The notes under the pieces are model-generated. The model was not told the DNA's origin. It ran no database searches and saw only the letters and a program-made list of their open reading frames with translations. From Xanthomonas albilineans (GTDB taxonomy: Bacteria > Pseudomonadota > Gammaproteobacteria > Xanthomonadales > Xanthomonadaceae): 64,000 bases of DNA. The position numbers were made by a program, and so were the translations under genes. Each line of letters opens with the position of its first letter. The first letter of the stretch is position 1. Shown here piece by piece: positions 12,757 to 62,814 of this stretch. The stretch spans positions 70,487 to 134,486 of the forward strand of contig NZ_MDCB01000006.1 in the NCBI RefSeq assembly GCF_002939705.1, read 5' to 3'.

Positions 12757-13398
12757 ATGAACCGACTGTCCCGCCTGCTGTTGTGCCTGCTCGCCCTGCT
12801 GCCGCTCAGCACCTTCGCACAACCCAAGCCAGCGGCAGTGGTGGAAGGAGAGGACTACACCGTAATCGCCGCCGCCAAGCCGTTCGCACCGCTGGCCGGC
12901 AAAATCGAAGTGGTGGAACTGTTCGGCTACCCCTGTCCGCATTGCGCGCATTTCGAACCACTGTTCGAAGAGTGGACCGCCAAGCAGGGCAAGGACGTGC
13001 GCGTGACCCTGGTCCCAGCCGCATTCGGCGGCCTCTGGGACAACTTCGCCAGCGCCTTCTATGCCGCACAGCAATTGGGCGTGCAAAACCGCAGCCACCA
13101 CGCCATGTTCGAGGCGATCCACGACAAGCGCAGCGTACCAACGCAGAACGTGGCACCGCAGGAACTGGCCGCATTCTATGCCGCCTACGGAGTGAAACCG
13201 CAAGACTTCATCGCCGCGTACGAAAGTCCGCAAGTGGCCGCGCAAGTGAAGGCCGCGCGCGACTTCGCCCTGCAGGCCGACATCCCCGGCACCCCCGCAC
13301 TGGTGGTCAACGGCACGTATCTGGTCAGGGGCAAGAACTTCCAAGACATGTTGCGCATCACCGACGCTCTGGTCGCGCGCGCGCGGGCGGGCAAGTAA
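12757..13398 (+). CDS. dsbA: Thiol:disulfide interchange protein DsbA
   Basis: A 213-residue periplasmic oxidase that introduces disulfides into exported proteins. Signal peptide is residues 1-21 (cleavage after T-F-A), active site C-P-H-C at 60-63 in F-G-Y-P-C-P-H-C, and the cis-proline loop P-G-T-P-A. The start at 12757 follows GGAG at good spacing. The second DsbA-like gene starts 105 bases downstream, so they are probably transcribed together. CPHC is the classic DsbA active site, pointing to a strong oxidase. Confidence 0.95.
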   Translation: MNRLSRLLLCLLALLPLSTFAQPKPAAVVEGEDYTVIAAAKPFAPLAGKIEVVELFGYPCPHCAHFEPLFEEWTAKQGKDVRVTLVPAAFGGLWDNFASAFYAAQQLGVQNRSHHAMFEAIHDKRSVPTQNVAPQELAAFYAAYGVKPQDFIAAYESPQVAAQVKAARDFALQADIPGTPALVVNGTYLVRGKNFQDMLRITDALVARARAGK

Positions 13399-13503
13399 CC
13401 AACGCACAGCGCTTGATCCACGTCATGGCATCATGGCGGCATTGCTGGACCTTGCTTGCCGCGGGTCCAGCGTATGCCCCCTATCCTGCTGGAGATGTCG
13501 CCG

Positions 13504-14328
13504 ATGAAGACCCGCTTCGCCCTGACCTTGATGGCCCTGCTGCCGATTCTGGTGGCATGCAAGGCCAAGGATGGCACTACCGACACCGTCGCCACCGCTA
13601 CTGGCACCACCGCAGCGCCTGCCACCGACAACAACGTGCCTGCCGAAACCGCGCCGACGCCAGCACCGGCCGACGCCAGCACGCCGCCGGCCACCGCAAG
13701 CGACGCCCACACCGCGGTCACGCCGGCCGCGGCGAAAAAGCCCAACGGCCCGGAGCCAGTCGCCGGCACCGACTACGTCGACATCCCCGGCGGCCAACCG
13801 TTCCAGCCGACCAACGGCAAGATCGAAGTCGCCGAAGTCTTCGGCTACGTGTGCCCCGCCTGCGCACGCTTTCAGCCGGTGATCGGCCCATGGAAGGCCG
13901 GCCTGCCATCGGACGTGCACTTCATCTACGTCCCGGCGATGTTCGGCGGCCCCTGGGACGACTACGCACGTGCGTTCTACGCCGCCGAAGCGTTGGGCGT
14001 GCAGGAAAAGACCCATGACGCCCTGTACAAGGCGATCCACATCGACGAGACGCTCAAGGGCGAGCGCGGCCGCGACTCGGTACAGGACATCGCCAATTTC
14101 TACGCCAAGTACGGCGTGGACCCCAAGCAATTCGCCGACACCATGAGCAGCTTCGCGGTGGCCACCAAGGCCAATCGCGCCAGGCAATTCGCCACCCGCA
14201 GCGGCATCACCGGCACGCCGTCGCTGATCATCGATGGCAAATACCTGATCAAGGGCAAAAGCTACGACGACATGCTGCACATCGCCGATCAATTGATCGC
14301 GCGCGAACGTACGGCGCTGACCAAGTAA
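13504..14328 (+). CDS. DsbA-family lipoprotein with CPAC active site
   Basis: 274 residues. The start at 13504 has GGAG nine bases upstream; an in-frame ATG at 13495 is too close to it. Lipobox L-V-A-C puts the acylated Cys at residue 19, followed by about 60 residues of Thr/Ala/Pro-rich linker and then a DsbA domain with C-P-A-C at 117-120 and the cis-proline G-T-P-S. It is therefore a membrane-tethered periplasmic disulfide oxidoreductase. It is a diverged duplicate of the soluble DsbA just upstream; the altered active-site dipeptide (P-A instead of P-H) should shift its redox potential and partners. Confidence 0.9.
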   Translation: MKTRFALTLMALLPILVACKAKDGTTDTVATATGTTAAPATDNNVPAETAPTPAPADASTPPATASDAHTAVTPAAAKKPNGPEPVAGTDYVDIPGGQPFQPTNGKIEVAEVFGYVCPACARFQPVIGPWKAGLPSDVHFIYVPAMFGGPWDDYARAFYAAEALGVQEKTHDALYKAIHIDETLKGERGRDSVQDIANFYAKYGVDPKQFADTMSSFAVATKANRARQFATRSGITGTPSLIIDGKYLIKGKSYDDMLHIADQLIARERTALTK

Positions 14329-14353
14329 ACGCCCCGCGTCGAGTAGCAGCGAC

Positions 14354-15121
14354 GTGACCGCTCCCGCCACCCGCACCCTGCGCGTGCTCACCGCCAATAT
14401 CCAGGCCGGTTCGAGCACGCGCCGCTACAGCGACTATGTGACCCGCAGTTGGTCGCATGCGCTGCCGGCCGGGCGCAAGCGCAACAGTCTGGACACGATC
14501 GCGCAATTGGCCAGCGCCCACGACATCGTCGGCTTGCAGGAAAGCGATCCTGGCAGTCTGCGCTCGGGCTTCACCAACCAGACCCACTACCTGGCCGAGC
14601 GCGCCGGCTTCCATTACTGGAGCCACCAGCCGAACCGACGCGTGGGCGGCGTGGCCTCCAGCGCCAACGGCCTGCTCAGCCGGCTGGAACCACTGGAGGT
14701 GCAGGACCATGCCCTGCCGGGCCGCCTCGGCGGACGCGGCGTGCTGCTGGCCAAGTTCGGCGACGGCAACGAGGGCCTGGCAATCGCGGTGGCGCACCTG
14801 TCGCTGGGCGCCACCTCGCGCACGATGCAATTGGCCTTTATTGCGGAGCTGCTCGCCGATCATCCCAACGCCATCCTGATGGGCGATTTCAACTGCGTCG
14901 CCGACCGACCGGAAATGCAGTTGTTGTACCAGCGCACACGGCTGCAACCACCGGCTTGCGTGGTGCCCACCTTCCCCAGCTGGCGCCCGCAGCGGGCCAT
15001 CGACCACATCCTGCTCAGCGACAGCCTGCGCTGCAACGCCCATCGCGCGGTACCGGCCGCCTTCTCCGACCACCTGGCACTGACCACCGAAATCCAAGTG
15101 CCACAAACACTGCTGCGTTGA
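14354..15121 (+). CDS. Endonuclease/exonuclease/phosphatase-family protein
   Basis: 255 residues, GTG start at 14354. The EEP fold is shown by V-L-T-A-N-I-Q near the start, D-I-V-G-L-Q-E (metal-binding Glu), L-M-G-D-F-N-C-V (catalytic Asp/Asn), and a C-terminal S-D-H-L-A-L-T. No signal peptide is seen, unlike the second EEP protein in this window (49595). Family members cleave phosphodiester or phosphate ester bonds in nucleic acids, lipids or sugars; the substrate here is unknown. It lies 25 bases after the DsbA-like lipoprotein gene and may be cotranscribed. Confidence 0.85.
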   Translation: MTAPATRTLRVLTANIQAGSSTRRYSDYVTRSWSHALPAGRKRNSLDTIAQLASAHDIVGLQESDPGSLRSGFTNQTHYLAERAGFHYWSHQPNRRVGGVASSANGLLSRLEPLEVQDHALPGRLGGRGVLLAKFGDGNEGLAIAVAHLSLGATSRTMQLAFIAELLADHPNAILMGDFNCVADRPEMQLLYQRTRLQPPACVVPTFPSWRPQRAIDHILLSDSLRCNAHRAVPAAFSDHLALTTEIQVPQTLLR

Positions 15122-15197
15122 CCGCTTGCGCAACAAGCAAGTCGTGCCGCGTTCGAGGCCATTGCATCATGTACTTGCCTGTGACCACGACCTCGCT

Positions 15198-18080
15198 CTA
15201 GAACTTCGCATCGACACGCGCATACAGATAACGACCGCCGGGAATCGCATAGGTCGAGGCGTCATAGCCATTGAGCGAACACGACAAACAGATCGGCGGA
15301 TTCTTATCGAACACGTTGTTGACGCCGCCGCTGACGGTCAGCCCCTTGAGCCAATCGAAACGGTAACCCACCTGCGCGTCGTGATAGGTCATCGCCGCCA
15401 GCGTATTGGTCCCGGCGACCTGATTGCTGCACACTGGAAATACAACTGCGTCTCCACATTGCTCGGTCAGTGCGGAGAGATGCCGCAGCGTCCATGACGC
15501 ATTCCAGCGTCCACGCGCCCAATCCAGCGTCATGTTGCTGGTCCACTCCGGGATGGCGCTGTCCACCACTTCCACGCCTGGGCGTTGCGGCTGCACTTGG
15601 CCGGCAGCGCCGGTGGCGACATAGCGGGTCACGAAGGTGTTCTGCCAGCGCAGCTTGAAACGTCCGAGCGCCGTTTCCGGCGAACTCCAGAACATGCCGA
15701 CGTCCCAGCCGTCGGTCTTGATCGCGCCAAGGTTGGTCAGGCGGTTATTGAAGCCGTTGATGACGCCCGTGGCCGCGCGGGTGATGCCCTGACAATAGAT
15801 CGGCGACAGCGTCTGCACGCACGCGTCGAGCTGAGTCTGCGCATTGATCGCCTGAATCGCACCATCGATGTCATGACGGTAAAAGGTAACATCGACATCG
15901 AAGTGGTCCGACCACGGCACGCTACTGGCGAACCAAGGGCTCCACACGAAGCCTGCGCTGAAGCTGCGCGCCTTCTCCGGCTTCAGCGCGCGGTTGCCAC
16001 CGGTGGTCACCGAGATCTGTGCATTGGCCTGCTGGTAGCCGACCGGCGCACCGAGCGCGGCGCAATGGGACGCACTGCCGCGCGGCGCGTTACCGCCAAG
16101 ACCGATCGAACACGGGTCGGATAAGATCAGATCGGCACGCGCGGCCGAACCGTACAACTCGCCGATGCTGGGGGCGCGGAAACCGTCGGCATAGCCGGTG
16201 CGCAGCACGAAATCCGGCGACACCTGCCAGCGCAGGCCGTACTTCGGCGTGAACTCGCCACCAAAGGTGGAATAGTCCGAATAACGCCCGGCCAGGCTGA
16301 GATCCAGTTTATCGCCCAGCGGCGAGTCGGCAAAAATCGGTACGCTCAGTTCGAGGTAAGCCTCTTTGACATCGTAACTCCCCTGAGTCGGCAACGATGG
16401 CACCCCATTGTAATGGCCGATCACAGTCAACGGATCGGGCTGGTACCAACCCTCGTACCTGCGGTATTCGATCCCGGTGGCGAAGGACACCGCGCCAGCA
16501 GGTAACCGGAACAGATCGCTGCTGAGATTGCTAGTGAACTGGGTGAGTACGTTCTGGCTTCGATCGTGCACCACCGGCTGAATCCAGCGCAGCATGTCCG
16601 GTGTGATACTGCCGGCACCGCCGAAGAGATTCAACGGCACACAACCGGCCACCGCCGCGCACGCAACCGGATCGCCCAACGCCAGATTGATGTTGTAGAT
16701 GTTGTAGCTACCATGATTGGTTTGCTCGGCGTGATTCTTGCTGTAGGTGGCGTCGACGTCCCAGAACCAGGTACGGTCGGCCCCTTGGAAACTGCCGATC
16801 AGACCAGTCCCGATGTAATGCGTGTCGACCCGCTGCTCGAACACGCGCATACCGCCTTCCACCGGCCGACGCGCGATCATGATCAGATTGCGCGCTGGAT
16901 CCAGAGCGAAGCCAAACGGGTTATATGGATTGGCGGCGGAAACGAACACATTATCGGCCAGCGGATTGCCGGTGCCCGCGCCTGGCCCCAGAAAAATCGG
17001 CTCCGGCGCGGCTTGATTGGTCGATGTCCGCCGGTTGCCCAGCAACTTCAGATACCACTGCATCTCATCATTGAAGAAGAAACGCAACTGGCCATACACG
17101 CCCTTGCGTTCGGACGGCGTCAGCAGGAGGTTGGAGAGGGCGAAGTTATAGCGGTCGGCAGTGCTGAAACAATGATAATCGTCGCGACGCCCGCAGCCGG
17201 GACTGCCAGCGTAACGGGGCGATGCGACGCCATGATTCGGCGTCAGATCCTGCTGGGCGCCGGTATTGGGATCGATGAAGATGAAACGCCCATCGGGTGT
17301 GGCCGAGCTGCCGAAGCTCACCCCAGTGCCGGGAACCGGATAAGAGGACTGCGTGCGATCGCGTGCATAAATCGGATCCTGTTTGGTGTCGCTGGCGCCG
17401 ACGAACACACTGGCGCGCTCACTGCTGTGGCCCCAGGCCAGATCCACCCCTTTGTTCGCACCATCGCCCTTGTCGTACAGACCATCGCTCAGCGTCACCT
17501 GGCCCCCCTCGAAACTGCGCCGGGTGATGATGTTGACCACACCGGCAATCGCGTCGGAGCCATACAGCGACGAGGCGCCATCCTCCAACACCTCGATGCG
17601 CTCGACAATCGCCAGCGGAATGGTATTGAGATCGGTCGCCGCACCCACCCCCGATGCAGAGGACTCGTTGACCCAACGCATGCCATCGACCAACACCAGC
17701 ACGCGCTTGGCACCGAGATGGCGCAGGTCAACCTGCGCCGAGCCAGCACCGACGCCACTGCCGTCGGGCGGGAAGCCGAAGTTGCCGGAGGAGTTGAACT
17801 TGGCATTCAAGGCCGAGCCGGAGGCGGTGAGTTGCTGCAGCACATCGCCGATGGAGGTCAGGCCGGTACGCTCGATATCGGCGCGACTCAGGCGCTGCAC
17901 TGGCACCTGCCCCTCCACTTCCGCGCGGCGGATGCGCGTTCCCGTGACCTGGACGCCATCCAGCGTGGTGGTCGCGGACGCGGCCGCTGTGCCCTGCTGC
18001 GCCCCGGCCAACCCTGGGGCACCCGCGAACAAGGTCGATGAAACTGCTAAAACCAAACGATGACGGTGCAGCACGTTCAT
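15198..18080 (-). CDS. TonB-dependent outer-membrane receptor
   Basis: A 960-residue receptor: signal peptide at residues 1-27 (L-A-G-A-Q-Q), TonB box-like [12 protein letters not shown], plug domain with [15 protein letters not shown] and [28 protein letters not shown], then a long beta-barrel ending in the aromatic K-F. The start at 18080 is preferred (GGAGAG upstream and a correct signal peptide). The plug type resembles receptors abundant in Xanthomonas that take up plant-derived oligosaccharides or peptides; ligand is unknown. It is divergent from the putative biosynthetic operon at 18664, and whether they are linked functionally is speculative. Confidence 0.92.
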
Positions 18081-18663
18081 CCGTCTCTCTCCGGAAAGGA
18101 TGTGGGCCAGTCGTTGCGTCCCCCTGCACCGCGCGGGCATAGAGGCGTTGTAATCAAATCATGAACGACACGCAAGCACCAAGCAGCGACACACGGCCCC
18201 CACCTAGCGGGAAGACTCCGCGGATACCGTGGCAAAGGTACCGCCGTCATTCTCACGCGGGCATTGGCCTGCAAACCGGAATGGGGAAAGCATCACGGCA
18301 TACTGATTTCTTTGCGTACATGATGATGATGAAATTTCCAACAACCGTCGGCAAAAGCGTACGTGCAAGCCAAGAGCAGCTGCTTCATTGGCAAAATACG
18401 ACGACCTGAAAGTACGATCGTGCTGTTCGCGTCGGATACGAGTAAATAAATCAACCAGAACATTATTGATATGAATCACTGAAAAAGTATTGCCGGACAA
18501 GAAAACCGAGTTATACAGCATCGATAACGCGAAAGCGCCAGCTTGTATTATTTTCACGAATTCAGAGGACGACCAGCGTCTAGATTTTTTATAAAATTCT
18601 ATCGCGCACATTTACCAATCGAAAAATTCCAACATTCAACTTGTACTTCGTCAGAGGTAGAGC
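18081..18663. other. AT-rich leader region upstream of the biosynthetic operon
   Basis: 583 bases between the TonB receptor (minus) and the TauD-like gene (plus). From about 18290 on it is much AT-richer than the chromosome around it, matching the operon to its right. A 135-codon minus-strand frame (18204-18611) is open, but it has no recognisable domain and no good ribosome site, so I do not call it. A possible promoter for the operon is listed separately. Confidence 0.5.
18490..18517 (+). promoter_or_regulatory. Possible sigma70 promoter for the five-gene operon
   Basis: TTGCCG, 16-base spacer, TATACA, about 150 bases upstream of the first gene. A reasonable match, but AT-rich DNA gives such matches by chance. 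Confidence 0.28.
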
Positions 18664-19494
18664 ATGCAAAGCCGCTTTCACGGTTGGTCCGCACAGGTGC
18701 TCGATGTGAACGATATAGAGGCAGTCATGCGAGATATCGACAAGTATGGGTTCGCTATCGTCCACGACAAATGGCGATTCGATGCGTCAGACTTCAAGCG
18801 TATGGCGGCGCTCTATCATCTCGGGCCGATGTATCAGTCCGATTTCAACCGCCGCATGCACATGGAGGGCATGTCAGCGTATGGCATCAACCAGGTCGGC
18901 GGTTTAACGAGTGGTCAACATGATGTATTCAACGGCACGTCAGGCGTGGCCTTGCATACCGATGGTTCCTACTTGCCCATTGGTACGATCAAGACGTCGA
19001 TCCTCCTTTGCAAGCAACATGCGCTTGGCGGCGGCGAATCGATGCTGTTCGATAGCCTATCGGCATTTCAGGCGCTTTCCCGACATCATCCAGAACTCGC
19101 CCAGTGTCTGCTAGCGCCTAAGGTATTCCGACGCAGATCGACCGATCCGCGCCTGAAGAGACAATATGAGTACATCGGCCCTGTGTTTCTCGCTACAAAA
19201 GATGGTGGAGTTGTTGGCTGCTTCACCTTAGACGTGACTGCGGACTGGGACTATTCGCGCCGTGTCGACCCTCGAGTGCTCGACGCTGTGTCTTACTTGA
19301 CCCGCCTTGCCGAGCCGGATAGCGGGTACACGCTGAGCTTCACCCTCCAAAAAGGACAAGCCTTGATCATGCGCAACGATCAGCTTTCACACGGGCGAAA
19401 CGCCTATGTCGACGATCCTGTCAATCCGCGTGTTCTACTGCGAGGTCTATTTTTTTCGGCTCCACGCACGCGCTACGTAGAAAAAACTCTCTAA
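18664..19494 (+). CDS. TauD/TfdA-family Fe(II)/2-oxoglutarate dioxygenase
   Basis: 276 residues; ATG at 18664 preceded by AGAGG. The metal-binding facial triad is visible as H98-x-D100 in A-L-H-T-D-G and a distal His near 243 in Q-L-S-H-G-R-N-A-Y, with the 2-oxoglutarate-binding Arg near 260 in V-L-L-R-G. The G-G-G-E-S-M-L-F-D motif is also typical of TauD/clavaminate-synthase-like enzymes. Such enzymes hydroxylate, desaturate or cleave small substrates, often amino acids in secondary metabolism. It is the first gene of a five-gene operon with an aminotransferase, a sulfotransferase, another dioxygenase and a kinase. The substrate cannot be named. Confidence 0.85.
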   Translation: MQSRFHGWSAQVLDVNDIEAVMRDIDKYGFAIVHDKWRFDASDFKRMAALYHLGPMYQSDFNRRMHMEGMSAYGINQVGGLTSGQHDVFNGTSGVALHTDGSYLPIGTIKTSILLCKQHALGGGESMLFDSLSAFQALSRHHPELAQCLLAPKVFRRRSTDPRLKRQYEYIGPVFLATKDGGVVGCFTLDVTADWDYSRRVDPRVLDAVSYLTRLAEPDSGYTLSFTLQKGQALIMRNDQLSHGRNAYVDDPVNPRVLLRGLFFSAPRTRYVEKTL

Positions 19495-53028: not shown

Positions 53029-53033
53029 GCGAC
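53029..53033. repeat. Target-site duplication, left copy
   Basis: GCGAC immediately outside the left terminal repeat; identical to 61811-61815 outside the right terminal repeat. Five bases is the standard duplication size for Tn7/Tn5053-type transposition. Confidence 0.93.
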
Positions 53034-53045
53034 TGTGAATTCCAA
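53034..53045 (+). repeat. Left terminal inverted repeat
   Basis: TGTGAATTCCAA, the exact reverse complement of 61799-61810. Starts with TGT as Tn7-family ends do. Confidence 0.92.
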
Positions 53046-53053
53046 AGCTCGCA

Positions 53054-53102
53054 TGTACTACGCCGCCCAATGAAGCCTATTATTACATCGATCCTTTGTA
53101 CT
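53054..53102 (+). repeat. Candidate TnsB-binding repeats, left end
   Basis: Two copies of TGTACT (53054-53059 and 53097-53102), in direct orientation inside the left end; the second is in TTTGTACTGG. A third copy lies inverted at 61745-61750 near the right end in TTTGTACTAG. Tn7-like ends carry several transposase-binding repeats of roughly 20 bp; these are the only recurring motifs I found. Confidence 0.45.
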
Positions 53103-53163
53103 GGTTGCCAACAGACCCGGCGACTGGGTCCGAAATTCCACCGCTTGAGAGGACTGGTTCGCC

Positions 53164-53817
53164 ATGCCCGTCCGTAAGATCGCTAAGAGCTACCGCAACG
53201 TGACCGGCATCGTGGCTGCGGCGAAGGCCGCTGGGCCGGCGCAGTTTGAGTCGACCCTGGAGCGGGACTTCCTCACTCGGCTGGAGTTCTCGCCCTACGT
53301 GCGCAGCTTCGAGGTACAGCCGGTCACCCTGTCCTGGCACGACGACGGACGCGAGCGACGCTACACGCCCGACGTGCTGGTGCACTTCAAGGCGCGGCAC
53401 GGTGCCGAACCGACCCCGCTGCTATGCGAGGTGAAGTCCCGCTCCGACCTGCGCGAGCAATGGCTGGACTTGAAACCCAAGTTCCGGGCCGCCATCCGCT
53501 TCGCCAAGGCACAGGGATGGCGATTCAAGCTGGTGACCGAAGCGGAGATCCGGACACCGTACCTCGACAACGCCCGATTCCTGCTGCCCTTCGTGCGGCG
53601 CGGTCCGCCACCTGCGGACGACATGGACGTGCTCGACAATTCGCTGTGCGAACTGGGCGAAGCCGACGTGCAGACCCTGTTGGAAACCGCCTGCCGCGAC
53701 GAATGGAACCGCGCCCGGTTGCTACCGGCGCTGTGGTACCTCGTCGGCACCTTCCACTTCGGTGCGGATTTGAACGCATCACTGACCATGTCCAGCCGTA
53801 TCTGGAGCAAGGGATGA
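53164..53817 (+). CDS. tnsA: TnsA-like transposon endonuclease
   Basis: 217 residues. Restriction-endonuclease-like catalytic core: Glu in F-E-S-T-L-E-R-D-F (residues 28-36), Asp70 in Y-T-P-D-V-L-V and E89-x-K91 in C-E-V-K-S-R, matching the Tn7 TnsA triad. A winged-helix C-terminal part follows (D-N-S-L-C-E-L-G onwards). TnsA cuts the 5' ends of the element so that, with TnsB, it moves by cut-and-paste. ATG at 53164; the stop overlaps the tnsB start by ATGA. Confidence 0.92.
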   Translation: MPVRKIAKSYRNVTGIVAAAKAAGPAQFESTLERDFLTRLEFSPYVRSFEVQPVTLSWHDDGRERRYTPDVLVHFKARHGAEPTPLLCEVKSRSDLREQWLDLKPKFRAAIRFAKAQGWRFKLVTEAEIRTPYLDNARFLLPFVRRGPPPADDMDVLDNSLCELGEADVQTLLETACRDEWNRARLLPALWYLVGTFHFGADLNASLTMSSRIWSKG

Positions 53818-55682
53818 ATTCCACACCCGCCACCTTCGCCGTACAACCCGGCACCGAAGTACTGGTAGGCCAACGACGTGGCACCGTTACCCGCATCCTC
53901 GACTTGGACGCCGTGCTGATCCGCGACTCCGAAACCGGCCAGATCCGCCAGGCGAAATTGACGGAACTGCAGCCAGCCATGCCAAGCATGGCCCTCGCCG
54001 CGCCCGGGCTGGAAGATCTCGCCGATGAAGACTGGCAGACGGCGCAACGCAGGCTGGATGTCATCCACCCGCTAGTACGAAAACGCGGGCGCACTCGCTC
54101 CGAAGTCAGCCAACGCGCGCGCGAGTTCGACCTGCATCCGAACACCTTATACAAGTGGCTGACCGCCTACGAAGCGACGGGACGGCTTACGGCACTCATG
54201 CCGAAGACGCGCCGCGACAAAGGGGCTCCGAAGCTTGCGGCTGAGATCGAAGCGATCATGCAGGCATCGATCGAAGACATCTACCTGACCTCGCAGCGCA
54301 AGCCGGTCTCCCGCGTCTGCGAAGACGTGCGCCGGCGCTGCTTGAACGCTGGGCTGGAGCCGCCACACGCGAACACGATCCGCAACCGGATCGCGCAGTT
54401 GGCGGAGCCACTGCGCACCAAGCGCCGCGAGGGCAGAAAGGCAGCGAGTGAGGCTTTTTCGCCGATCGAAGGCGAGTTCCCCGGCGCAGACTGGCCGCTC
54501 GCAGTCGTACAGATCGACCACACAAAACTCGACATCATCCTGGTAGACGACCATCACCGGCGCCCGATCGGCCGCCCATGGATCACGCTCGCCATCGATG
54601 TTTTCAGCCGCATGGTCGCGGGCTTCTACGTTTCCTTCGACCCGCCGGGCGCTCTGGCGACCGGCCTGTGCGTCGCGCATGCGGTCCTGCCAAAGGAGCA
54701 ATGGCTGGCGAAGCGCGACATCGATGCGGAGTGGCCCGTGTGGGGCTTCCCCAAGACGCTGCACATGGACAACGCCAAGGAATTCCGCGGCCTGATGCTG
54801 CAGCGAGCATGCGCCGAGTACGGCATCGACATCAACTGGCGGCCGGTGGCGCGACCGCACTTCGGCGGCCACATCGAGCGGCTCCTCGGCACAGCCGGCA
54901 AGGAAATCCACACGCTCCCTGGTACGACCTTTTCCAATCCGCAGCAACGCGGCGACTACGACTCGGAAGGCAAGGCAGCGCTGACACTGAGCGAATTCGA
55001 AGCGTGGCTGACCGTTTACATCTCGCAGGTCTACCACCAGCGCAAACATTCCTCGCTTGGGATGTCGCCGCTCGCCAAGTACCGGGAAGGCGTCTTCGGC
55101 ACGGAACAGCGACCTGGCGTGGGCCTGCCAGCGCGCATCGCCGACGAAGACCGGCTACGACTCGACTTCACTCCGTTTGTGGAACGCACGGTCCAGGACT
55201 ACGGCGTCGTGATCGACGAGGTGCACTACTATCACGACGTGCTGCGGCGCTGGATCGGCGCGAAGGATCCGACTTCGCCGAAGACGAAGCGGAAGTTCGT
55301 CTTCCGGCGCGACCCACGCGACATCAGCACGATCTGGTTCTTCGACCCAGAGTTGCGCACCTACTATCCGATTCCATACCGCGACACGTCGCATCCGGCT
55401 ATCAGCCTCTGGGAACTGCGCGAAGTCGAGCGCATGGTCAAGCAGGTTGGTAACGAGCCGGACGAACGCACCTTGTTCAAGGCTTACGACCGTATGCGCT
55501 CCATCGAGGATGATGCGCAGGCAAAGACCAAGGCCGTGCGGCGGGTCCAGCAGCGGCGGCGCGACGGTCTTGGCGCAGAGAAGCCGTCGATGGCGACCGG
55601 CCCCGTCGTTGAGACCGCTATTACCCCAGAGACGATCAAGCCGTTCGACGAGCTGGATCCGCTGAGCGAAGGACATGTCTGA
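53814..55682 (+). CDS. tnsB: TnsB/TniA-family DDE transposase
   Basis: 622 residues. N-terminal DNA-binding helix-turn-helix domains (H-P-N-T-L-Y-K-W-L near 108-116), then a retroviral-integrase-type catalytic core with D235 (Q-I-D-H-T), D319 (H-M-D-N-A-K-E-F) and E355 (G-G-H-I-E-R-L-L-G), and a C-terminal beta-barrel and tail. It binds the ends and makes the 3' cuts and joins. Coupled to tnsA (ATGA overlap) and to tnsC (8-base overlap). Confidence 0.95.
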   Translation: MNSTPATFAVQPGTEVLVGQRRGTVTRILDLDAVLIRDSETGQIRQAKLTELQPAMPSMALAAPGLEDLADEDWQTAQRRLDVIHPLVRKRGRTRSEVSQRAREFDLHPNTLYKWLTAYEATGRLTALMPKTRRDKGAPKLAAEIEAIMQASIEDIYLTSQRKPVSRVCEDVRRRCLNAGLEPPHANTIRNRIAQLAEPLRTKRREGRKAASEAFSPIEGEFPGADWPLAVVQIDHTKLDIILVDDHHRRPIGRPWITLAIDVFSRMVAGFYVSFDPPGALATGLCVAHAVLPKEQWLAKRDIDAEWPVWGFPKTLHMDNAKEFRGLMLQRACAEYGIDINWRPVARPHFGGHIERLLGTAGKEIHTLPGTTFSNPQQRGDYDSEGKAALTLSEFEAWLTVYISQVYHQRKHSSLGMSPLAKYREGVFGTEQRPGVGLPARIADEDRLRLDFTPFVERTVQDYGVVIDEVHYYHDVLRRWIGAKDPTSPKTKRKFVFRRDPRDISTIWFFDPELRTYYPIPYRDTSHPAISLWELREVERMVKQVGNEPDERTLFKAYDRMRSIEDDAQAKTKAVRRVQQRRRDGLGAEKPSMATGPVVETAITPETIKPFDELDPLSEGHV

Positions 55683-56574
55683 CACGCACGCCCACCTGAG
55701 CGCCGCTGCGGCAGCATGGCTGACGCTGTCGGCGGTGGAGCGGATCGAACGGATTCGCTCGCCGCGCTGGATCGGTTATCCGCGTACCAAATCCATCATC
55801 GCGAAGCTTGAGAACCTGCTTACCTGGCCAAAGTCGCACCGCATGCCGAACCTGCTACTAGTCGGCGACACCAACAACGGCAAGACCATGCTGGTGCAGC
55901 GCTTCCGCTCACTGCATCCCGCGCGCGATAACCCACAGGGCCAAGGCGTTCGCGTGCCGGTGCTGGCCATCCAGGCGCCGCCCACACCCGATGAGGGCCG
56001 GTTCTACAACGCCATCCTGGAACTGCTTTTCGCCCCCTACAAGCCGAACGACCGTGTGGACAAGAAGCAGGCACAGGTGGTCAAGCTGCTGCGTTACGTC
56101 GGCCTGCAGATGCTGGTCATCGACGAGATCCACCACATCTTGGCCGGAAACCTCAACCGGCAGCGCACCTTCCTCAACGTCATCAAGTACCTGGGCAACG
56201 AGCTGCAGGTTCCTATCGTGGGCGTGGGCACGAAGGACGCCTTCCGCGCGATCCAGACCGACCCGCAGCTCGCCAACCGCTTCGAGCCGGCCCTGCTGCC
56301 GCGCTGGACCTTCGATGCCGACTTCCTGCGCTTGCTGGCCAGCTTTGAGCGGATGCTGCCGCTGGCCGAGCCGTCGAACCTGCATGATACGTCGCTGGCA
56401 GCGAAGTTGTTTTCGCTGAGCGAAGGCTACCTCGGCGAACTATCGACGCTGCTAACGCTCGCTGGTGCCTCGGCGGTCGAATCTGGCCGCGAGCGCATCG
56501 ATGCCAAGTTGATCGAAGCCCTTGGCTGGGTCTCGCCTTCGGAGCGCAGGCGCCAAGCTGAACGGGTGCTGTGA
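55675..56574 (+). CDS. tnsC: TnsC/TniB-type AAA+ transposition regulator
   Basis: 299 residues. Walker A G-D-T-N-N-G-K-T at 64-71, Walker B M-L-V-I-D-E-I-H-H at 146-154, sensor region V-G-V-G-T-K-D-A-F. At under 300 residues it is the short TniB-like form seen in Tn5053 and some Tn7-like or CRISPR-associated elements, far shorter than the 555-residue TnsC of Tn7. It forms ATP-dependent filaments that link target selection to the transposase. It overlaps tniQ by ATGA. Confidence 0.93.
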   Translation: MSDTHAHLSAAAAAWLTLSAVERIERIRSPRWIGYPRTKSIIAKLENLLTWPKSHRMPNLLLVGDTNNGKTMLVQRFRSLHPARDNPQGQGVRVPVLAIQAPPTPDEGRFYNAILELLFAPYKPNDRVDKKQAQVVKLLRYVGLQMLVIDEIHHILAGNLNRQRTFLNVIKYLGNELQVPIVGVGTKDAFRAIQTDPQLANRFEPALLPRWTFDADFLRLLASFERMLPLAEPSNLHDTSLAAKLFSLSEGYLGELSTLLTLAGASAVESGRERIDAKLIEALGWVSPSERRRQAERVL

Positions 56575-57590
56575 TGCCGCTGTCCGGCGATCTCTGGCCG
56601 GCGCATCCCAAACCCTTGCCGGACGAACTGCTCTCGTCCTGGATTGCGCGCATCGCGTGCGCGAACGGCCTCAAGCTACAGACCTTCTGCGATCGTGTGT
56701 TCGGAAAAGAGCACCAATTGTGGAACCGCGACATTGACCGCCTGGCTCCGCCCTGGCTACTAGCATTGCTCGCACGCCACACCGGAACTCCGATCAGAAC
56801 CGTTCGGCGCACAACACTCAACATCTACCGGGGGTGGCTGTTCCGCGAACGACATTCCGCTGGACAACTGCGCTGGATACTTCCCGCTGGAATCTACCAC
56901 CGTACGCGCCGCCGCTTCGGTGTTCAGTACTGTCCGCAGTGCCTGGCTGATGACGAGGAGCCCTACTTCCGCACGCGTTGGCGCGTGGCCGCGCTGACAT
57001 TCTGCGCGGGGCACCGCCTACGCCTGCATGACCGATGCCCGGCTTGCGCCGCACCCATCGTTTATCACCGCCGCGAACTGGGGCGACCGAATGTCACGGA
57101 ACCGGGCCTGCTGTGCCTTTGCCACGCCTGCAACTTCGACCTCCGCAAGGCAGAGCGTGTTGGATTTCTTCCGTATGAAGCGAGCATAGGCACCGAACTC
57201 ACCGAGATTGCCGCGCACGTTGCCGGCAGGACTACCGATTTGAGCATCGGCCACATGGACGTCCTGCACCAGCTATGCAAAGTGATGGTCAGCCTGCGCA
57301 AGTCCGCTCAACTCGGCGCGTTCACAGCTCACGCCATTGGCGCGCCAGACCTAGCCGTCCCTCGCGGCCGCCAAGCCTTTGAATCGCGACCCATCCAGGA
57401 GCGCGATCACATCATCCAGTTGGCTACCTGGTTACTGGCGGCACCGCAAGTCCGTCTTGACGAGGCATGGCGAGCGAAAGCCGTGCGCTACAGTGATCTG
57501 GTGCGTGATTTCCCTGAGGCTTCGCAGTGGTACCTTGCGACTGTTGATACGTTTAATCGAGGCCGTACTCGGCGCGTCAAATCGACGTGA
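56571..57590 (+). CDS. tniQ: TniQ/TnsD-family target-selection protein
   Basis: 339 residues. TniQ signature near the N-terminus (P-L-P-D-E-L-L-S-S-W-I-A-R-I-A) and two zinc-finger sets: Y-C-P-Q-C ... C-A-G-H ... C-P-A-C (about residues 119-158) and C-L-C-H-A-C (about 181-186). TniQ/TnsD proteins recognise the attachment site and recruit TnsC. Tn7 TnsD is about 500 residues, so this is a shorter form with less DNA-binding C-terminus. As the only TniQ present it is the likely determinant of insertion at lipA. Confidence 0.92.
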   Translation: MMPLSGDLWPAHPKPLPDELLSSWIARIACANGLKLQTFCDRVFGKEHQLWNRDIDRLAPPWLLALLARHTGTPIRTVRRTTLNIYRGWLFRERHSAGQLRWILPAGIYHRTRRRFGVQYCPQCLADDEEPYFRTRWRVAALTFCAGHRLRLHDRCPACAAPIVYHRRELGRPNVTEPGLLCLCHACNFDLRKAERVGFLPYEASIGTELTEIAAHVAGRTTDLSIGHMDVLHQLCKVMVSLRKSAQLGAFTAHAIGAPDLAVPRGRQAFESRPIQERDHIIQLATWLLAAPQVRLDEAWRAKAVRYSDLVRDFPEASQWYLATVDTFNRGRTRRVKST

Positions 57591-57620
57591 GACCAGCATA
57601 GAGGCTAGCGCATACTGAAC

Positions 57621-58478
57621 TTAGGCTACTTCGGCACGCGATGGGGCGATGCTGCGTGGCACCACCAGCCCGTCTTTAAGGATCATCACTTCGCTGCCGC
57701 GAAACCTGCCATTTGCACTGTAGTGCAGCCCGAATCGCTTCTGTCGGTAACTAGCGTACAACTTCTTGATCGGTGCCACTGCGTCGTACGAAACGATCCA
57801 TGGCTGTCCGATGGTAGCCACCCGCGTGGCAATGTCGACATGACTTTCGTGACTGTAATGGTGCTCATATAACCCACGCCCCTTCACGTAGTACGGTGGA
57901 TCGAGATAGACCAACGTACTCGCCGGCAACGTCGGCAGCACCGCGTCGATCAAAACTGCGGCATCCAAGTTATACAGCGAGATAGCTTCCGCTCGTACAG
58001 CAATGCGCTCAATGCGTGCAATCATGTCTTCTTTGTTGAAGCGTGCGTCTAAGGTCCACGCCCCGTCCTGCGCCTTGCCACCGATCACACCACCGCGAAT
58101 GATGCCGGAGCGGTTGGTGCGATTGAGAAAAAATGTGGAGAACGCTAGGTCAAGCCCATTGGCATTGGGATCATCCTGGATCCGCCTTTGCGCATGCCAC
58201 ACTTCCATATTCACATCTGTCGACGCAATTCTGGCGCACAACTCGTCGGCCTGATGCAGCACTGCATGCCAGAACGCGTGAATTGATCGGTTAAGGTCAT
58301 TGATATGAATATGAGAGACCACATTCGCCAGCAGCAGGCTGACTGCAATGCCGGCCCCGCCAGCATACGGCTCCATGTAGTGACCGCCTTGTAGTCCGTT
58401 ACGATCGATGACTTTGCGCATGAAACGGGTCAGTCGGCCCTTACCACCGGGGTAGCGCAATGGAGTGTCGTAAGGCAC
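57621..58478 (-). CDS. D12-class (Dam-like) adenine-N6 DNA methyltransferase
   Basis: 285 residues with the alpha-class motif order: L-R-Y-P-G-G-K-G-R-L (motif X) at 7-16, the SAM-binding E-P-Y-A-G-G-A-G (motif I) at 36-43, and catalytic D-P-P-Y at 193-196. It would methylate adenine N6 in a short DNA site. It is the last gene of a minus-strand operon within the transposon, 66 bases after the ParB-like gene. Alone it could be a regulator or anti-restriction enzyme; with the ParB-like protein it could form a restriction-modification-like pair. This stretch is AT-richer than the tns operon. Confidence 0.9.
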   Translation of the reverse strand: MPYDTPLRYPGGKGRLTRFMRKVIDRNGLQGGHYMEPYAGGAGIAVSLLLANVVSHIHINDLNRSIHAFWHAVLHQADELCARIASTDVNMEVWHAQRRIQDDPNANGLDLAFSTFFLNRTNRSGIIRGGVIGGKAQDGAWTLDARFNKEDMIARIERIAVRAEAISLYNLDAAVLIDAVLPTLPASTLVYLDPPYYVKGRGLYEHHYSHESHVDIATRVATIGQPWIVSYDAVAPIKKLYASYRQKRFGLHYSANGRFRGSEVMILKDGLVVPRSIAPSRAEVA

Positions 58479-58544
58479 GGCGTGGGGAGCTCCTAATCCT
58501 TTGCCGTTTTATAACAACCTTTGGCCAAGATGGCCAGCTTGGCC

Positions 58545-59987
58545 TCATGGAGTGCGCAAAGCGTCGAAAAGGCGCCGGAAATATGGTTGCCAGCGCTCCC
58601 ATACACGCTTGACTTCCTGCCCTTCGGCATCAGCATTGCGATTGTGAATATAGCCGTGCAAGTTGCTTACCGAATGCCCATGCTCGCTACTGGAGATCCC
58701 CTGACGCGCACTGAGCAACTCGTGGTCGCGGCCCGCCGGATCCAGATTCTCCAACACGGTGCGGATCTTCAACTCCAATGACAGCCCGATATCGCCCCAG
58801 TGTGACTTGCTGTGCCTTGCGGGAATCGCGATCTGCTTCGCCGTCAGATAGAACTCCGAACTTAGCTCCAAGAACACGCGCATCAACAATGCAGCGGTAT
58901 TGGGGAAGCCATCTGGGTCCAGGTTGCGAGCCTCTTCATAGAGTCGATTCAAGCGCGGGTCTTCAATGCGCAGATCATACCCCTTCCCGCGGAGCGCCAA
59001 CGTTGTGCGCAAAAGCGTGGACGGTGCCGGCCGCATCGGCTTACCCTGCGGACGTGGCGCCTCAGGCCGCCCTTTGTCAGGCGTTGTTCCGTTCGCGCCG
59101 TTCCTACCTAGTGACGGATTGACGACCGAATAGGGATCATCAATCAGGTCGGGTGCTGCAGGGGATGCGGCCGGCGCCAGCACCGCTGCCTCGGCAAATC
59201 GGTCTATGAACGAGATACGCTGGTCCTGCTCAAGGATGTGACGCACCGGAAAACTCTTAGACCCCAACGCTTCGGCCATGGACAGCAGCAGCGCATTTCC
59301 TGCTGTCACATCGCCGCTCGCGAACGCTATCGCGTTGGCTTTGCGGTCGATGACAATGCCCAGCCGTGTGCGTACGTATGGCATCTGGAAGACGCGATCC
59401 AGATTGGTGGTTCGCCGCCTTAGGTTCTTTTCCAGCAGCGGAGTGAGCAGGCCGCGTCCACGCAGGTGATCGAGAATCGCACGTGAAGGACGGACCTTGC
59501 CGCTCTTGTATTCGTCGCGTCGATCCGTCGCCGGCGAACCCCACTGCACCAAACCCCGCCCATTCAAGGGATTATGCTTACGGTCAATCCACAACAAAGC
59601 ATCATCGCGCCCCTCGAAAACAGCGCACTGTACGTGAGTGATCGGATCCATGCGAAACCGTTCGGCTAGGGCCTGGTAATCCCCCTCAAAGGCGGTGCCG
59701 CGGGCCAGCTCCGGGTTGCCCATTAGCCGCAATGCGGTGAGACGTCGATTGCCCTCGTACACAACATACCTATCCGCCGCATCGGGATTAGGCGCCACAA
59801 TCAGAAATTCGGCAGGACTCAATCCATTCTCGAGGATGTCGCGGGATAGGTTCACCAGCTTCTGTTGCTGCTCCTCGAGCATGTTCTCCACGGACTCTTC
59901 CTGCGTATCCGCAGCCTCCAGTCGAAAATTTGATACGTCCAGATCGAGCTGATCGATTCGAATCGGTCGCTTATTCACGCCACTCAT
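58545..59987 (-). CDS. ParB/sulfiredoxin-fold protein, transposon cargo
   Basis: 480 residues. The N-terminal ParB-N domain includes L-D-V-S-N-F-R-L near the start, I-L-E-N-G-L, and the signature V-V-Y-E-G-N-R-R-L-T-A-L-R at about 75-87. A middle helical region and a long C-terminal domain (A-L-L-M-R-V-F-L-E-L-S-S-E-F) not recognised follow. This domain occurs in DNA-binding and CTPase partition proteins and in nuclease or ATPase modules of defence systems. It is clearly not a chromosomal ParB (no central HTH partition domain visible). It lies between the 575-residue gene and the methyltransferase in one operon. Confidence 0.75.
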   Translation of the reverse strand: MSGVNKRPIRIDQLDLDVSNFRLEAADTQEESVENMLEEQQQKLVNLSRDILENGLSPAEFLIVAPNPDAADRYVVYEGNRRLTALRLMGNPELARGTAFEGDYQALAERFRMDPITHVQCAVFEGRDDALLWIDRKHNPLNGRGLVQWGSPATDRRDEYKSGKVRPSRAILDHLRGRGLLTPLLEKNLRRRTTNLDRVFQMPYVRTRLGIVIDRKANAIAFASGDVTAGNALLLSMAEALGSKSFPVRHILEQDQRISFIDRFAEAAVLAPAASPAAPDLIDDPYSVVNPSLGRNGANGTTPDKGRPEAPRPQGKPMRPAPSTLLRTTLALRGKGYDLRIEDPRLNRLYEEARNLDPDGFPNTAALLMRVFLELSSEFYLTAKQIAIPARHSKSHWGDIGLSLELKIRTVLENLDPAGRDHELLSARQGISSSEHGHSVSNLHGYIHNRNADAEGQEVKRVWERWQPYFRRLFDALRTP

Positions 59988-60008
59988 TAGCAGGCCCCAT
60001 TATTCTAA

Positions 60009-61736
60009 TCATATTGAGTTTGACGCTCGCTGCAGCGCGGTGCAAATATCGTCGGCGAAGGCTTCCGCCGACGTACGGCTGTGATTGAACAGCGCCAGCT
60101 TCATGTCGGCCGGATGCGGCTTGAGATTCGCCCAGACACCTTCGGCGTTCACCAGCGCGTGCAGGAGGCGCTTCAACCGTTCGTCGGAGAGTGGAACAGC
60201 CTCGAACAGAATCAGCAGCGCCGCTTTGCTGCGTTCGCTTCTACGGCGCTCGAACTCCACCAGGCTGCCGCAGCAGCCGGCGCATTCTATGTCAATCACC
60301 ATGACGCGGCGCTCGATCTTGCCTGCGGAGTCGAGATAGCCCCATTGCCAGCGGCCACGCGGTTTGGTCAGCGGCAGATTCACTGTCGCGGGCGTGGGCG
60401 GACGCACACTAGCGGAAACGCTCTCAAGAGTGTTTAGGGCGTCGACAACTTTCAGTAGAGCGTCGAAGGACGCGGGCAGGCTCTTGAGGCGTTCTGCTTC
60501 GCGGCGCAAGGTCACACGCAGCGGCCCCACGCCCGTCGCCTGACCACCGGCTGCGCCTGCACCGAGCAACACAACGACCTGGGTGCGTCGGAAGGATGAG
60601 CGCTTGTAGCGGCACTCCGTCTTCGGTGTCTTTATCACGCTCTTTCCGTTCAAAGCTTCGAAGCGTTCGCTGGCGAGCGAAATGTCGATCGAGTCAATCT
60701 GCGCTTCCGGCTGATCGTCACTTTGGATTTCGGCGTCCGCGCCTAGCTTCGCCGTGCGGCGCGGCGGCGACCAAGCTGGCCTTTTCTCGTCCTCTGGGAG
60801 ATCGGTGCCCGGATCCGCCTGAGTGCCGTCGTTGTCGCGCACCACTTCCAGCTCGTCGAACGGGAATGGCGCGGAGCAGCGCAGAAGCTCGTGAATGAGC
60901 CAGCGCTTGCCGCCGCCATCGACCGGCAGATCGACACCGCGCGTCGACCAGTCCGTCACGCCGCGAAATGGCAAACCGCATCCGGGGAAGACAGCCGCCC
61001 GGTTCGCCGTGCTCTTCAACAGCGAATCGTAGATCCGCGTCACGCCCGCGCGCGCATGGCCATCGCCCAGGATGCGGCCGATCACCCAGCCATCGTCGTC
61101 GGCCAACCATTGCCGTAGGCGCACGACCATACGATTCGAATCGCGAAGGGGGCCGCTGACGTCCGTGTCGATGAGCGTGTGCAGGTGCAATTGAAATGCA
61201 CCGCTAAACACGGCGTGGGCAAGGTCGGTCGAGACCGCGTAGTAGAAGCGTATCGCCTCGATCATGGGCAACACGATGCCGTAGGGATCGCCACCATACT
61301 CGATCGCGAAGCACGGAGTGTGGCCCGTAAGGGCAAGCCTAGGCAATTGGTGCGCGAAGTGTGGGATCAGCCAGCGCTTGGGATCCTCCGACAGAACCAG
61401 GCCGGCTTCCACCAGCTTAACCGTCTTAGGTCCTATCTGAACTCCATGAAGCCGCTTTCCGTATCCCGCTGCATGACGAAGCCGCCGGCCGTTGCGCCAA
61501 AGCGAGCCAATCGCAAGATATGGCAGCAGGCCGATACCGATGCGGGCATGCTCAGGGGTCGTGCTGTCAAAATCGCGCTGGACACGCGGATTCGGCGGGG
61601 CAGCTGTGGTCGCCGGACTGAGGTAGACGTCGATCCGCGTATCCGCCCCGGCCCGTTCCACAGGGCCGAACCAGTCAATCCGCCAAATCCTGCCGTCCTT
61701 GGGGAATTCCCGGATCGGCGGGACTATGGTCGGCAT
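60009..61736 (-). CDS. 575-aa transposon protein, candidate divergent TnsE
   Basis: Begins near the right end of the element. From memory of the Tn7 TnsE sequence I see shared layout: an N-terminal W-R-I-D-W-F-G-P, the segment L-P-M-I-E-A-I-R-F-Y-Y-A-V-S-T-D, R-L-R-Q-W-L-A-D-D-D, P-F-R-G-V-T-D-W followed by W-L-I-H-E-L-L, a charged low-complexity middle, and a C-terminal domain with F-D-A-L-L-K-V and R-V-M-V-I-D-I-E. TnsE directs Tn7 to replication forks and mobile plasmids. Here it is not in the tnsABCD operon but leads a separate operon, 21 bases upstream of the ParB-like gene. If not TnsE, it is an unassigned component of the ParB/methyltransferase module. Similarity is by eye only. Confidence 0.5.
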   Translation of the reverse strand: MPTIVPPIREFPKDGRIWRIDWFGPVERAGADTRIDVYLSPATTAAPPNPRVQRDFDSTTPEHARIGIGLLPYLAIGSLWRNGRRLRHAAGYGKRLHGVQIGPKTVKLVEAGLVLSEDPKRWLIPHFAHQLPRLALTGHTPCFAIEYGGDPYGIVLPMIEAIRFYYAVSTDLAHAVFSGAFQLHLHTLIDTDVSGPLRDSNRMVVRLRQWLADDDGWVIGRILGDGHARAGVTRIYDSLLKSTANRAAVFPGCGLPFRGVTDWSTRGVDLPVDGGGKRWLIHELLRCSAPFPFDELEVVRDNDGTQADPGTDLPEDEKRPAWSPPRRTAKLGADAEIQSDDQPEAQIDSIDISLASERFEALNGKSVIKTPKTECRYKRSSFRRTQVVVLLGAGAAGGQATGVGPLRVTLRREAERLKSLPASFDALLKVVDALNTLESVSASVRPPTPATVNLPLTKPRGRWQWGYLDSAGKIERRVMVIDIECAGCCGSLVEFERRRSERSKAALLILFEAVPLSDERLKRLLHALVNAEGVWANLKPHPADMKLALFNHSRTSAEAFADDICTALQRASNSI

Positions 61737-61744
61737 CGCAGTCT

Positions 61745-61750
61745 AGTACA
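61745..61750 (-). repeat. Candidate TnsB-binding motif, right end
   Basis: AGTACA, the inverted copy of the two TGTACT motifs at the left end, lying 14 bases beyond the new lipA stop codon. Confidence 0.4.
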
Positions 61751-61758
61751 AAAAAGCG

Positions 61759-62814
61759 CTAGAGAGTCGCCGAAAGCGATGTGGAGTCCACATTACCGTT
61801 GGAATTCACAGCGACGCCGGCGCCAGCCGCCTGACGGTCGGCATGATAGGAAGAGCGCACCATCGGACCGGACGCCACGTGACTGAAACCCAGCACGTTG
61901 CCATAGTCCTCCAACGCCTTGTATTCCTCCGGCGTCCAGTAGCGCATCACCGGATGGTGATGGGCGGTCGGCTGCAGATACTGGCCGATGGTCACCATGT
62001 CCACGTCGTGCGCACGCAAGTCGCGCAGCGTGGCCTGGACCTGCTCCGGGGTTTCACCCAGGCCGAGCATGATGCCCGATTTGGTGGCGATGGACGGGTG
62101 TTGCGCCTTGAACTTCTGTAGCAGGGTCAGCGACCACTGGTAATCGGCACCGGGGCGCACGTTCGGGTACAGCTCCGGCACCGTCTCGATGTTGTGGTTG
62201 AACACATCCGGCGGATGCGTCGCCAGGATCTCCAGCGCACGCTCCATCCGACCTTTGCCACGGAAATCCGGGGTGAGGATCTCGATGCGGGTGGCGGGCG
62301 CCGCAACGCGGATCGCAGCGATGCAGTCGGCGAAGTGCTGGGCACCGCCATCGCGCAGGTCGTCGCGGTCCACGCTGGTCACCACCACGTACTTCAACCC
62401 CATATCGGCCACGGTCTGCGCCAGACTCGCCGGCTCGCCGGCATCCGGCGGCTTGGGCCGGCCGTGTGCGACGTCGCAGAACGAGCACCGGCGTGTACAC
62501 ACCTCGCCCAGGATCATGAACGTGGCCGTGCCATGACTGAAGCATTCGTGGATGTTCGGACAACTGGCTTCTTCGCAGACGGTGACCAGACGGTTTTCGC
62601 GCAGCTTGGCCTTGAGCGTCTGCACCGCGTTGCCGGAAGGCAGACGCACGCGAATCCACGACGGCTTGCGCAACACCGGCGCATCGACGAATTGCACTGG
62701 CGAACGGGCGATCTTGTCTTCGCCCAATTGCTTGACCCCGGCCTGCAACGGCGCCGATGCGCTATCGGCGGAGAGAACCTGCAAAGGAATGCTGCGTGCG
62801 CTGGGCTGGGTCAT
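61759..62814 (-). CDS. lipA: Lipoyl synthase with transposon-encoded C-terminus
   Basis: 351 residues, radical-SAM enzyme inserting two sulfurs into octanoyl chains to make lipoyl cofactors. Auxiliary cluster cysteines are in [12 protein letters not shown]; the radical-SAM triad is C-T-R-R-C-S-F-C. All family motifs are intact up to [14 protein letters not shown]. The last 16 residues (V-N-S-N-G ... S-A-T-L) and the TAG stop come from the right end of the Tn7-like element; the uninterrupted gene would end one residue later (G-stop). The alteration lies after the conserved core, so the enzyme is probably functional. It is downstream of lipB. Confidence 0.96.
61799..61810 (-). repeat. Right terminal inverted repeat
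   Basis: TTGGAATTCACA, reverse complement of the left end. Its sequence is translated as part of the altered lipA C-terminus. Confidence 0.92.
61811..61815. repeat. Target-site duplication, right copy
   Basis: GCGAC, matching 53029-53033; it lies inside the lipA coding sequence. Confidence 0.93.

Follow-up and report, generated by a model that had tools for sequence, protein, structure and literature searches.

A Tn7-like transposon predicted to home to the 3′ end of lipA in Xanthomonas albilineans

The last codons of lipA, the lipoyl synthase gene and part of core metabolism, are interrupted by an 8,777-bp element (53034-61810) in a 64,000-nucleotide stretch of Xanthomonas albilineans DNA (the window; NZ_MDCB01000006.1, positions 70,487 to 134,486 of the forward strand), which raises the question of whether a transposon prefers this gene and, if so, how it finds it. 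An earlier note on the window had described lipA as interrupted at its 3′ end by a complete Tn7-like element, a description supported by the ends, the TnsA, TnsB, TnsC and TniQ gene calls and an empty site. The element is probably a complete transposon of the Tn7-like, cut-and-paste kind with the lipA 3′ end as its homing target (probability about 0.8), and lipA is a recurrent attachment site, occupied in a single orientation and at one place in several genera, with differing duplications. The boundaries and the attachment gene are as follows.

53029..53033, no strand: GCGAC target-site duplication, left copy, read from the sequence
53034..53045, plus strand: left end tip TGTGAATTCCAA, 12-bp terminal inverted repeat
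61799..61810, minus strand: right end tip TTGGAATTCACA, exact reverse complement of the left tip
61811..61815, no strand: GCGAC target-site duplication, right copy, read from the sequence
61811..62814, minus strand: host lipA (lipoyl synthase), the attachment gene, interrupted near its last codons (TIGR00510, 6.2e-131)
61759..61810, minus strand: element sequence forming a new in-frame lipA 3′ end of about 16 codons and a stop

The perfect 12-bp terminal inverted repeats and the 5-bp GCGAC duplications of the earlier note were confirmed to the base, and they form the unique pair in the 64-kb window that combines a perfect 12-bp inverted repeat with a matching 5-bp flank and a spacing of 3-30 kb. 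Chance also yields such pairs: when the window was resampled 10 times with a first-order Markov model, 2 of the resamplings contained one each. The repeats by themselves are therefore less than overwhelming, and outside evidence matters; the exact ends are settled by the empty site and by the elements of relatives. Removal of the element and one GCGAC in silico gives a LipA ending in ...GAGVAG before the stop, and this rebuilt native stop, likewise proposed in the note, agrees with the LipA ends of the genus, which in 18 of 19 other same-genus genomes lie at the same place, as ...AGAGVAA or ...AGAGIAA, ten residues past RSSYHAD. An uninterrupted lipA junction, as predicted for relatives, is present in the same-genus genome G016 (92.2% over 4,684 bp spanning the join, with one GCGAC and a gapless join). 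No same-genus relative was found to lack the genes and still show the same junctions: 18 have ordinary lipA ends and the nineteenth, G001, holds a decayed copy, in which lipA is followed by a right end and a truncated TnsE-like gene, while TnsB is without a match. In this remnant (L072, 1136-1870) the right end and the 5′ part of the TnsE-like gene are followed by other genes, some of which look insertion-sequence-like by eye.

The genes associated with transposition are found as follows.

53164..53817, plus strand: tnsA, endonuclease (PF08722 7.8e-19; PF08721 1.3e-4)
53814..55682, plus strand: tnsB, DDE transposase, start MNSTPATF, overlapping the tnsA stop (PF09299 4.1e-09; rve 2e-4; PADLOC TnsB 3.6e-39)
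55675..56574, plus strand: tnsC, short TniB-type AAA+ ATPase of 299 amino acids (PF05621 3.1e-79)
56571..57590, plus strand: tniQ, 339 amino acids, likely lipA selector (PF06527 3.5e-30)
60009..61736, minus strand: tnsE-like gene, 575 amino acids, adjoining lipA

The profile matches bear out the calls of TnsA, TnsB, short TnsC and short TniQ made in the earlier note. The start of tnsB was picked by eye from the translation; what we take to be the D/D/E residues of TnsB and the Walker A (GDTNNGKT) and Walker B (MLVIDEIHH) motifs of TnsC were likewise read by eye. The structure of TniQ predicted with AlphaFold2 has a predicted local distance difference test score (pLDDT) of 87, and 21 of the 21 entries in its structure list are TniQ or TnsD. 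The element therefore holds the gene set by which Tn7-like elements are recognised, namely TnsA with a TnsB DDE transposase, an AAA+ TnsC and a TniQ/TnsD-family protein; its transposition genes are open.

The earlier note had considered lipA an unfamiliar attachment site and proposed looking for other elements beside it; related ones were found there in Beta- and Gammaproteobacteria, which strengthens the claim. A TnsB-pattern scan of 84,980 species genomes gave 35 loci, and lipA was followed in all 35 records and matched in 31. At three of the loci lipA lies inside the fetched stretch, and a script located the ends of a lipA element in each: in a Lysobacteraceae metagenome-assembled genome (MAG; L002, duplication TCGAC), in Xanthomonas dyei (L003, AGCGA), which belongs to the window's family and to another genus in the classification used, and in Thiomicrospira sp. 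WB1 (L026, GCTGT). The script also gave a pair of ends at L090. Further lipA elements are a 17.5-kb one at L006/L100 (L006 being Pseudoalteromonas ostreae; duplication ACTTC) and a 20.7-kb one in Ideonella sp. MAG2 (L008; GCCAC, tip bases identical 14/14), and duplications match across two contigs at L016 (GCAAT, tips 10/14) and L027 (CTAAG, tips 9/14). Eight elements, those of the window, four gammaproteobacterial records and three betaproteobacterial MAGs, thus have matching duplications and turn the same end toward lipA, six of them on a single contig; the lipA side alone was found in six more (G182, L018, L019, L021, L024 and L035), and there is one remnant. The eight with matching duplications show a trait of Tn7-like elements, insertion into a conserved gene at a fixed site and in a fixed orientation.

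With an expectation value (E) of 1e-40 or better, TnsB was matched in 44 genomes of a 398-genome sample from the order and in 9 of a 369-genome sample from the class; both counts include the window's own genome. The three genomes of the order sample with a TnsB identity of at least 70%, own included, all have the element at lipA. Reading of lipA 3′ ends was extended to 20 more genomes, a subset of those with a TnsB match: in seven (L016, L018, L019, L021, L024, L027 and L035) lipA is directly followed by a right-end-like tip and/or a TnsE-like gene, L018 and L027 showing just the tip, and in 13 it is followed by neither. At L019, tnsB is broken by a contig end and resumes on the lipA contig. 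The position of G182 in the TnsB tree led to the prediction of an element at lipA, made ahead of reading the 3′ end of the gene, and that end fits the prediction, with a tip 48 nt past the first base of the RSSY codons and a TnsE-like match of 26.6%. A TGT in G090 lies 41 nt past RSSY and before the native stop, with no TnsE-like match, and this end was counted as native. No close relative of TnsB was found on plasmids (3,468 records at E 1e-60, all below 60% identity), nor was one of TniQ (75 records at E 1e-20, all below 60% identity). That relatives lie at the same spot suggests that lipA is a place where this element family can land safely.

The position of insertion is nearly constant. 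Measured from the first base of the codons for the catalytic RSSY motif, the element tip lies 47 nt away in the window, 47 in L002, 48 in L003, 44 in L006 and 45 in L026, the five complete elements, 47 in both the G001 remnant and L008, 48, as said, in G182, 47 in L018, L016 and L019, 51 in L027 and 45 in L021, which places the junction 44-51 nt after that base in 13 loci. Both ends of the window element carry repeats resembling TnsB sites.

53042..53060, plus strand: TnsB-site-like repeat at left end position 9, score 11.2
53085..53103, plus strand: TnsB-site-like repeat at left end position 52, score 15.8
53138..53156, plus strand: TnsB-site-like repeat at left end position 105, score 11.5
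61744..61762, minus strand: TnsB-site-like repeat at right end position 49, score 12.5
61764..61782, minus strand: TnsB-site-like repeat at right end position 29, score 10.5, under the shuffled maximum of 11.1
61784..61802, minus strand: TnsB-site-like repeat at right end position 9, score 14.0

The motif was derived from, and scored on, the same 10 ends of five elements (shuffled-end 95% level 6.3, maximum 11.1), so that the shared spacing and not the scores is the evidence: the left-end repeats lie near positions 9, 52 and 105 in 5/5 elements and the right-end repeats near 9, 29 and 49 in 4/5, L006 being without the first. In all five complete elements the dense right end faces lipA. TGT...ACA ends, a 5-bp duplication and several putative TnsB-type sites per end, the last recognised as sequence motifs, are features of Tn7-like ends. 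On the target side, the 69 nt around RSSY in six lipA genes are invariant at 18 first, 16 second and 0 third codon positions of 23 each. As none of the 23 third positions is invariant, whatever reads the lipA site must accept wobble changes, a property that PMC2918618 describes for TnsD at glmS. In Escherichia coli LipA the Arg306 and Ser308 of RSSY are described as needed for activity (PMC13232139).

Compared with the predicted native protein, the window LipA has lost its last residue and gained a 16-residue tail and a stop through the right end. Short tails of the same kind occur in L002, L003, L006, L008 and L026, and in G182 a stop stands immediately before the element tip. Right-end stops in all three frames lie within 52 nt in 4/5 elements; these sequences are related, and the pattern does not imply selection. 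The insertion would leave lipA alive, the protein being cut past the catalytic RSSY motif and the right end supplying a short new tail and a stop, and the tailed enzyme presumably works.

By analogy with TnsD at glmS, the conserved lipA codons are most likely read by TniQ. Together with TnsC, TniQ would recognise these codons, which lie about 25-65 bp away from where the element inserts, and so direct it to 44-51 nt past the first RSSY base, while TnsA and TnsB would carry out excision and joining. A TniQ tree holds one 11-row clade (support 100/100), made up of the nine rows at lipA and of two from Ralstonia, whose genomes have native lipA ends, and a single clade of the five lipA elements known at that time, on which the label counts in the TniQ tree and the one-clade test are based, was not rejected by the approximately unbiased test (p-AU 0.345 for TniQ, 0.174 for TnsB). 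The TniQ tree was built without L075, L076, L024, L010, L012, L014 and L092 (partial or duplicate) and further re-fetched copies, TniQ was unrecovered for L016, L019 and L021, and eight more long-branch rows were dropped from the TniQ one-clade test; the TnsB tree was built without 21 rows (duplicates and distant Pseudomonas-type sequences) and matches shorter than about 450 residues. Outside the lipA group, the insertion site was worked out for L086 and L088 alone, both with comM flanks. A wider proposal, for which the odds appear about even, is that lipA is a widespread safe haven of the whole TniQ clade across Beta- and Gammaproteobacteria, that a small TniQ without TnsF, Cas or a TnsD extension reads the RSSY codons while ignoring wobble, and that the lipA-facing end doubles as a carrier of TnsB sites and a replacement 3′ end.

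Several observations weigh against homing to lipA through TniQ. The Ralstonia elements L013 and L025 (L014 is identical to L013) fall in the TniQ clade, yet their genomes have native lipA ends, and the nine-row lipA label was finished after the tree had been built. The 339-residue TniQ is without a long TnsD-like extension, and a small TniQ is taken as a sign of an extra selector by Faure et al. 2023 (PMC10293859). Matching duplications are absent from L018, L019, L021, L024 and L035, the tips of L024 and L035 are irregular, and L035 may hold two elements, its tns genes and its lipA being situated deep inside different contigs; the left end of G182 stands on a contig apart from lipA, with a flank unlike the lipA-side flank. 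The predicted model of the TnsE-like protein is weak overall (pLDDT 66). Homing itself is predicted from sequence comparison, and no transposition was observed. As for the two Ralstonia elements (L013/L025, at about 9207-15951), they share 6.7 kb at 82% and have differing flanks on both sides.

Among the alternatives, the least improbable, though still unlikely, is that lipA is chosen by the TnsE-like protein encoded beside it, or by TniQ and that protein together, as TnsF serves TniQ in Tn6022. The gene adjoins lipA in the window, at six named loci (L002, L003, L006, L008, L026 and, at a contig end, G182) and in five more genomes, and the small size of TniQ would suit a helper. The TnsE-like gene was the first idea for the selector, and this idea lost weight because the same family occurs in L086, which has comM at its tnsA-side end (A1 profile 3.6e-63; flank YifB/ComM 2.1e-73), and also in Ralstonia, where the genomes that hold the elements keep native lipA ends; moreover, the fold recognised in the protein is limited to the TnsE C-terminal part, and L018 has no TnsE-like profile match within 3.6 kb of lipA. 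RNA-guided homing by a short element guide matching lipA, as in CRISPR-associated Tn7-like elements, is hardly conceivable. A 14-nt lipA match in L002 exceeds its resampled maximum of 12, which speaks for a guide and likewise counts against recognition by TniQ; in the window element, however, the longest match to 150 bp of lipA is 12 nt against a maximum of 14 in 40 resamplings, and the lipA matches of three other elements are also within their resampled maximum. The window element has no direct repeats of at least 18 nt within 400 bp and no repeat array, no Rfam match at the gathering threshold and no match to Cas effector families in any of its seven proteins, so that in these tests neither a Cas effector nor a site-matching guide, the marks of CRISPR-associated transposons, was found in it.

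The view that the elements insert widely without target specificity and that the lipA cases are a surviving sample draws on the Ralstonia copies of the TniQ clade, with their differing flanks and native lipA; it is largely contradicted by the eight elements, which occupy the same few bp in the same orientation in several genera with differing duplications, and by the single TnsB match in the window's own genome, and its probability is close to negligible. Only slightly better placed, and still very improbable, is a Tn5053/Tn402-type element that carries a TnsA-like gene by chance. A TnsC of the TniB type (the PF05621 match above) and a short TniQ would fit such an origin, whereas tnsA overlaps tnsB and recurs in relatives, and the element lies in lipA and not at a plasmid res site. 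Elements of the Tn5053/Tn402 type lack TnsA and resolve co-integrates with a resolvase; the window element has TnsA, and no resolvase match was obtained among its genes.

With homing through TniQ retained as the preferred reading, the element can be set against known systems. Tn7 at glmS (TnsABC with TnsD, and TnsE for plasmids) has in common with it TnsA, TnsB, TnsC, TniQ-family and TnsE-like proteins and a 5-bp duplication, as well as TGT...ACA ends with several TnsB-like sites, a single orientation and a target at the 3′ end of a core gene coding for catalytic residues. The differences are that Tn7 inserts downstream of glmS by means of a long TnsD, whereas the window element lies inside the lipA coding sequence before the stop and rewrites the C-terminus, has a 339-residue TniQ, and bears at its far end a TnsE-like gene read from the opposite strand. 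The end facing lipA is the one away from tnsA, which also differs from the arrangement in Tn7. The TnsD site is described as the last 36 bp of glmS, with insertion about 25 bp off (PMC2918618).

Closer in part is the Tn6022 family at comM, described with TniQ and TnsF and with TnsE on the opposite strand (PMC10293859). A short TniQ and an opposite-strand TnsE-like gene are shared with the window element, and the comM-flanked L086 holds a homologue of the same TnsE-like family. In the window, by contrast, the element sits in lipA and spares the catalytic part of that gene, and the gene after tniQ is an opposite-strand methyltransferase and not tnsF; the protein at the TnsF position of L086, TnsF-like by position only and used as one query, matched nothing in the window element at E 1. 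At another comM-flanked locus, L088 (4771-6792), a long TniQ of 674 amino acids has an end that matches the first 95 residues of the TnsF-position gene of L086, possibly a TniQ-TnsF fusion.

The chromosomal attachment sites listed for Tn7-like elements in Table 1 of PMC11406308 are glmS, yhiN, comM, parE and tRNA genes; Tn6230 (yhiN) and Tn7017 (parE) are likewise Tn7-like at conserved genes and are set apart from the window element by the gene, as described there. No description of lipA as an attachment site was found among the open-licence papers listed, as judged by title, and the main texts of PMC10293859, PMC8649781 and PMC11406308 contain 0 mentions of lipA or lipoyl; because the search covered open-licence papers only, with supplements outside it, an earlier report elsewhere is possible. 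The gene would add to the known sites, one used across two proteobacterial classes, and the choice seems to follow the glmS rule of aiming at codons fixed by catalysis. The natural duplications, the empty site and the one Ralstonia exception make the selector testable, and compact protein-only homing to catalytic codons could help to place DNA in bacterial genomes.

The earlier note had not included the TnsE-like gene (60009-61736), the defence cargo or the new in-frame tail that lipA receives from the right end. Besides the TnsE-like gene, the cargo consists of PD-Lambda-5 A and B alone (57621-59987).

57621..58478, minus strand: PD-Lambda-5 B, adenine methyltransferase (PADLOC PDLC04018 1.8e-116; PF02086 1.2e-15)
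58545..59987, minus strand: PD-Lambda-5 A (PADLOC PDLC04009 3.6e-197)

Both genes of the PD-Lambda-5 anti-phage system are present and adjacent, and a diverged pair stands in the same place in L003; here the system is transposon cargo, whereas PMC9519451 describes the original as a compacted, prophage form of a restriction-modification and abortive-infection system. Other lipA elements encode a protein resembling the Zorya helicase family ZorD (L002, 2.5e-18), a type II methyltransferase (9.7e-54) with a protein giving a weaker LmuB match (1.4e-14; L026), or a JetD-like protein (L006/L100, 1.9e-12), and 4 of 10 cargo proteins scanned gave no match. The cargo is variable and partly defence-like, as Benler et al. 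(PMC8649781) describe for Tn7-like elements in general; it would be exchangeable, PD-Lambda-5 being the module held in the window, and lipA ends are a place to look for defence cargo.

As for the TnsE-like protein, the model points to the TnsE C-terminal DNA-binding fold, in that part alone. PF18623 (TnsE_C) does not match the window protein, matches 3 of the 10 aligned members weakly (E 0.053 at best) and gives nothing in five further members, and searches of PDB sequences with the protein, its profile and the L087 protein gave nothing convincing. The protein may provide a second route, directed to conjugative plasmids. No relatives were found in a viral-contig scan, and a plasmid search gave 6 records with 22-26% identity over 41-49% of the protein; in three of these regions that were opened, no tns genes are listed in the PLSDB gene tables, which are incomplete. 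One weakly TnsE-like protein (L039, 11563-13365) is encoded on a conjugative Pseudomonas aeruginosa plasmid with no tns genes listed nearby, and may be a remnant or reflect a different use of the fold. In Pseudoalteromonas ostreae a further TnsB (51%; G781:C4:153933-162806) is encoded on a contig other than that of lipA, with its own TnsE-like match about 6 kb off. In L027, a second TniQ-like gene (18097-19209) lies on the opposite strand, apparently within the Rhodocyclaceae lipA element.

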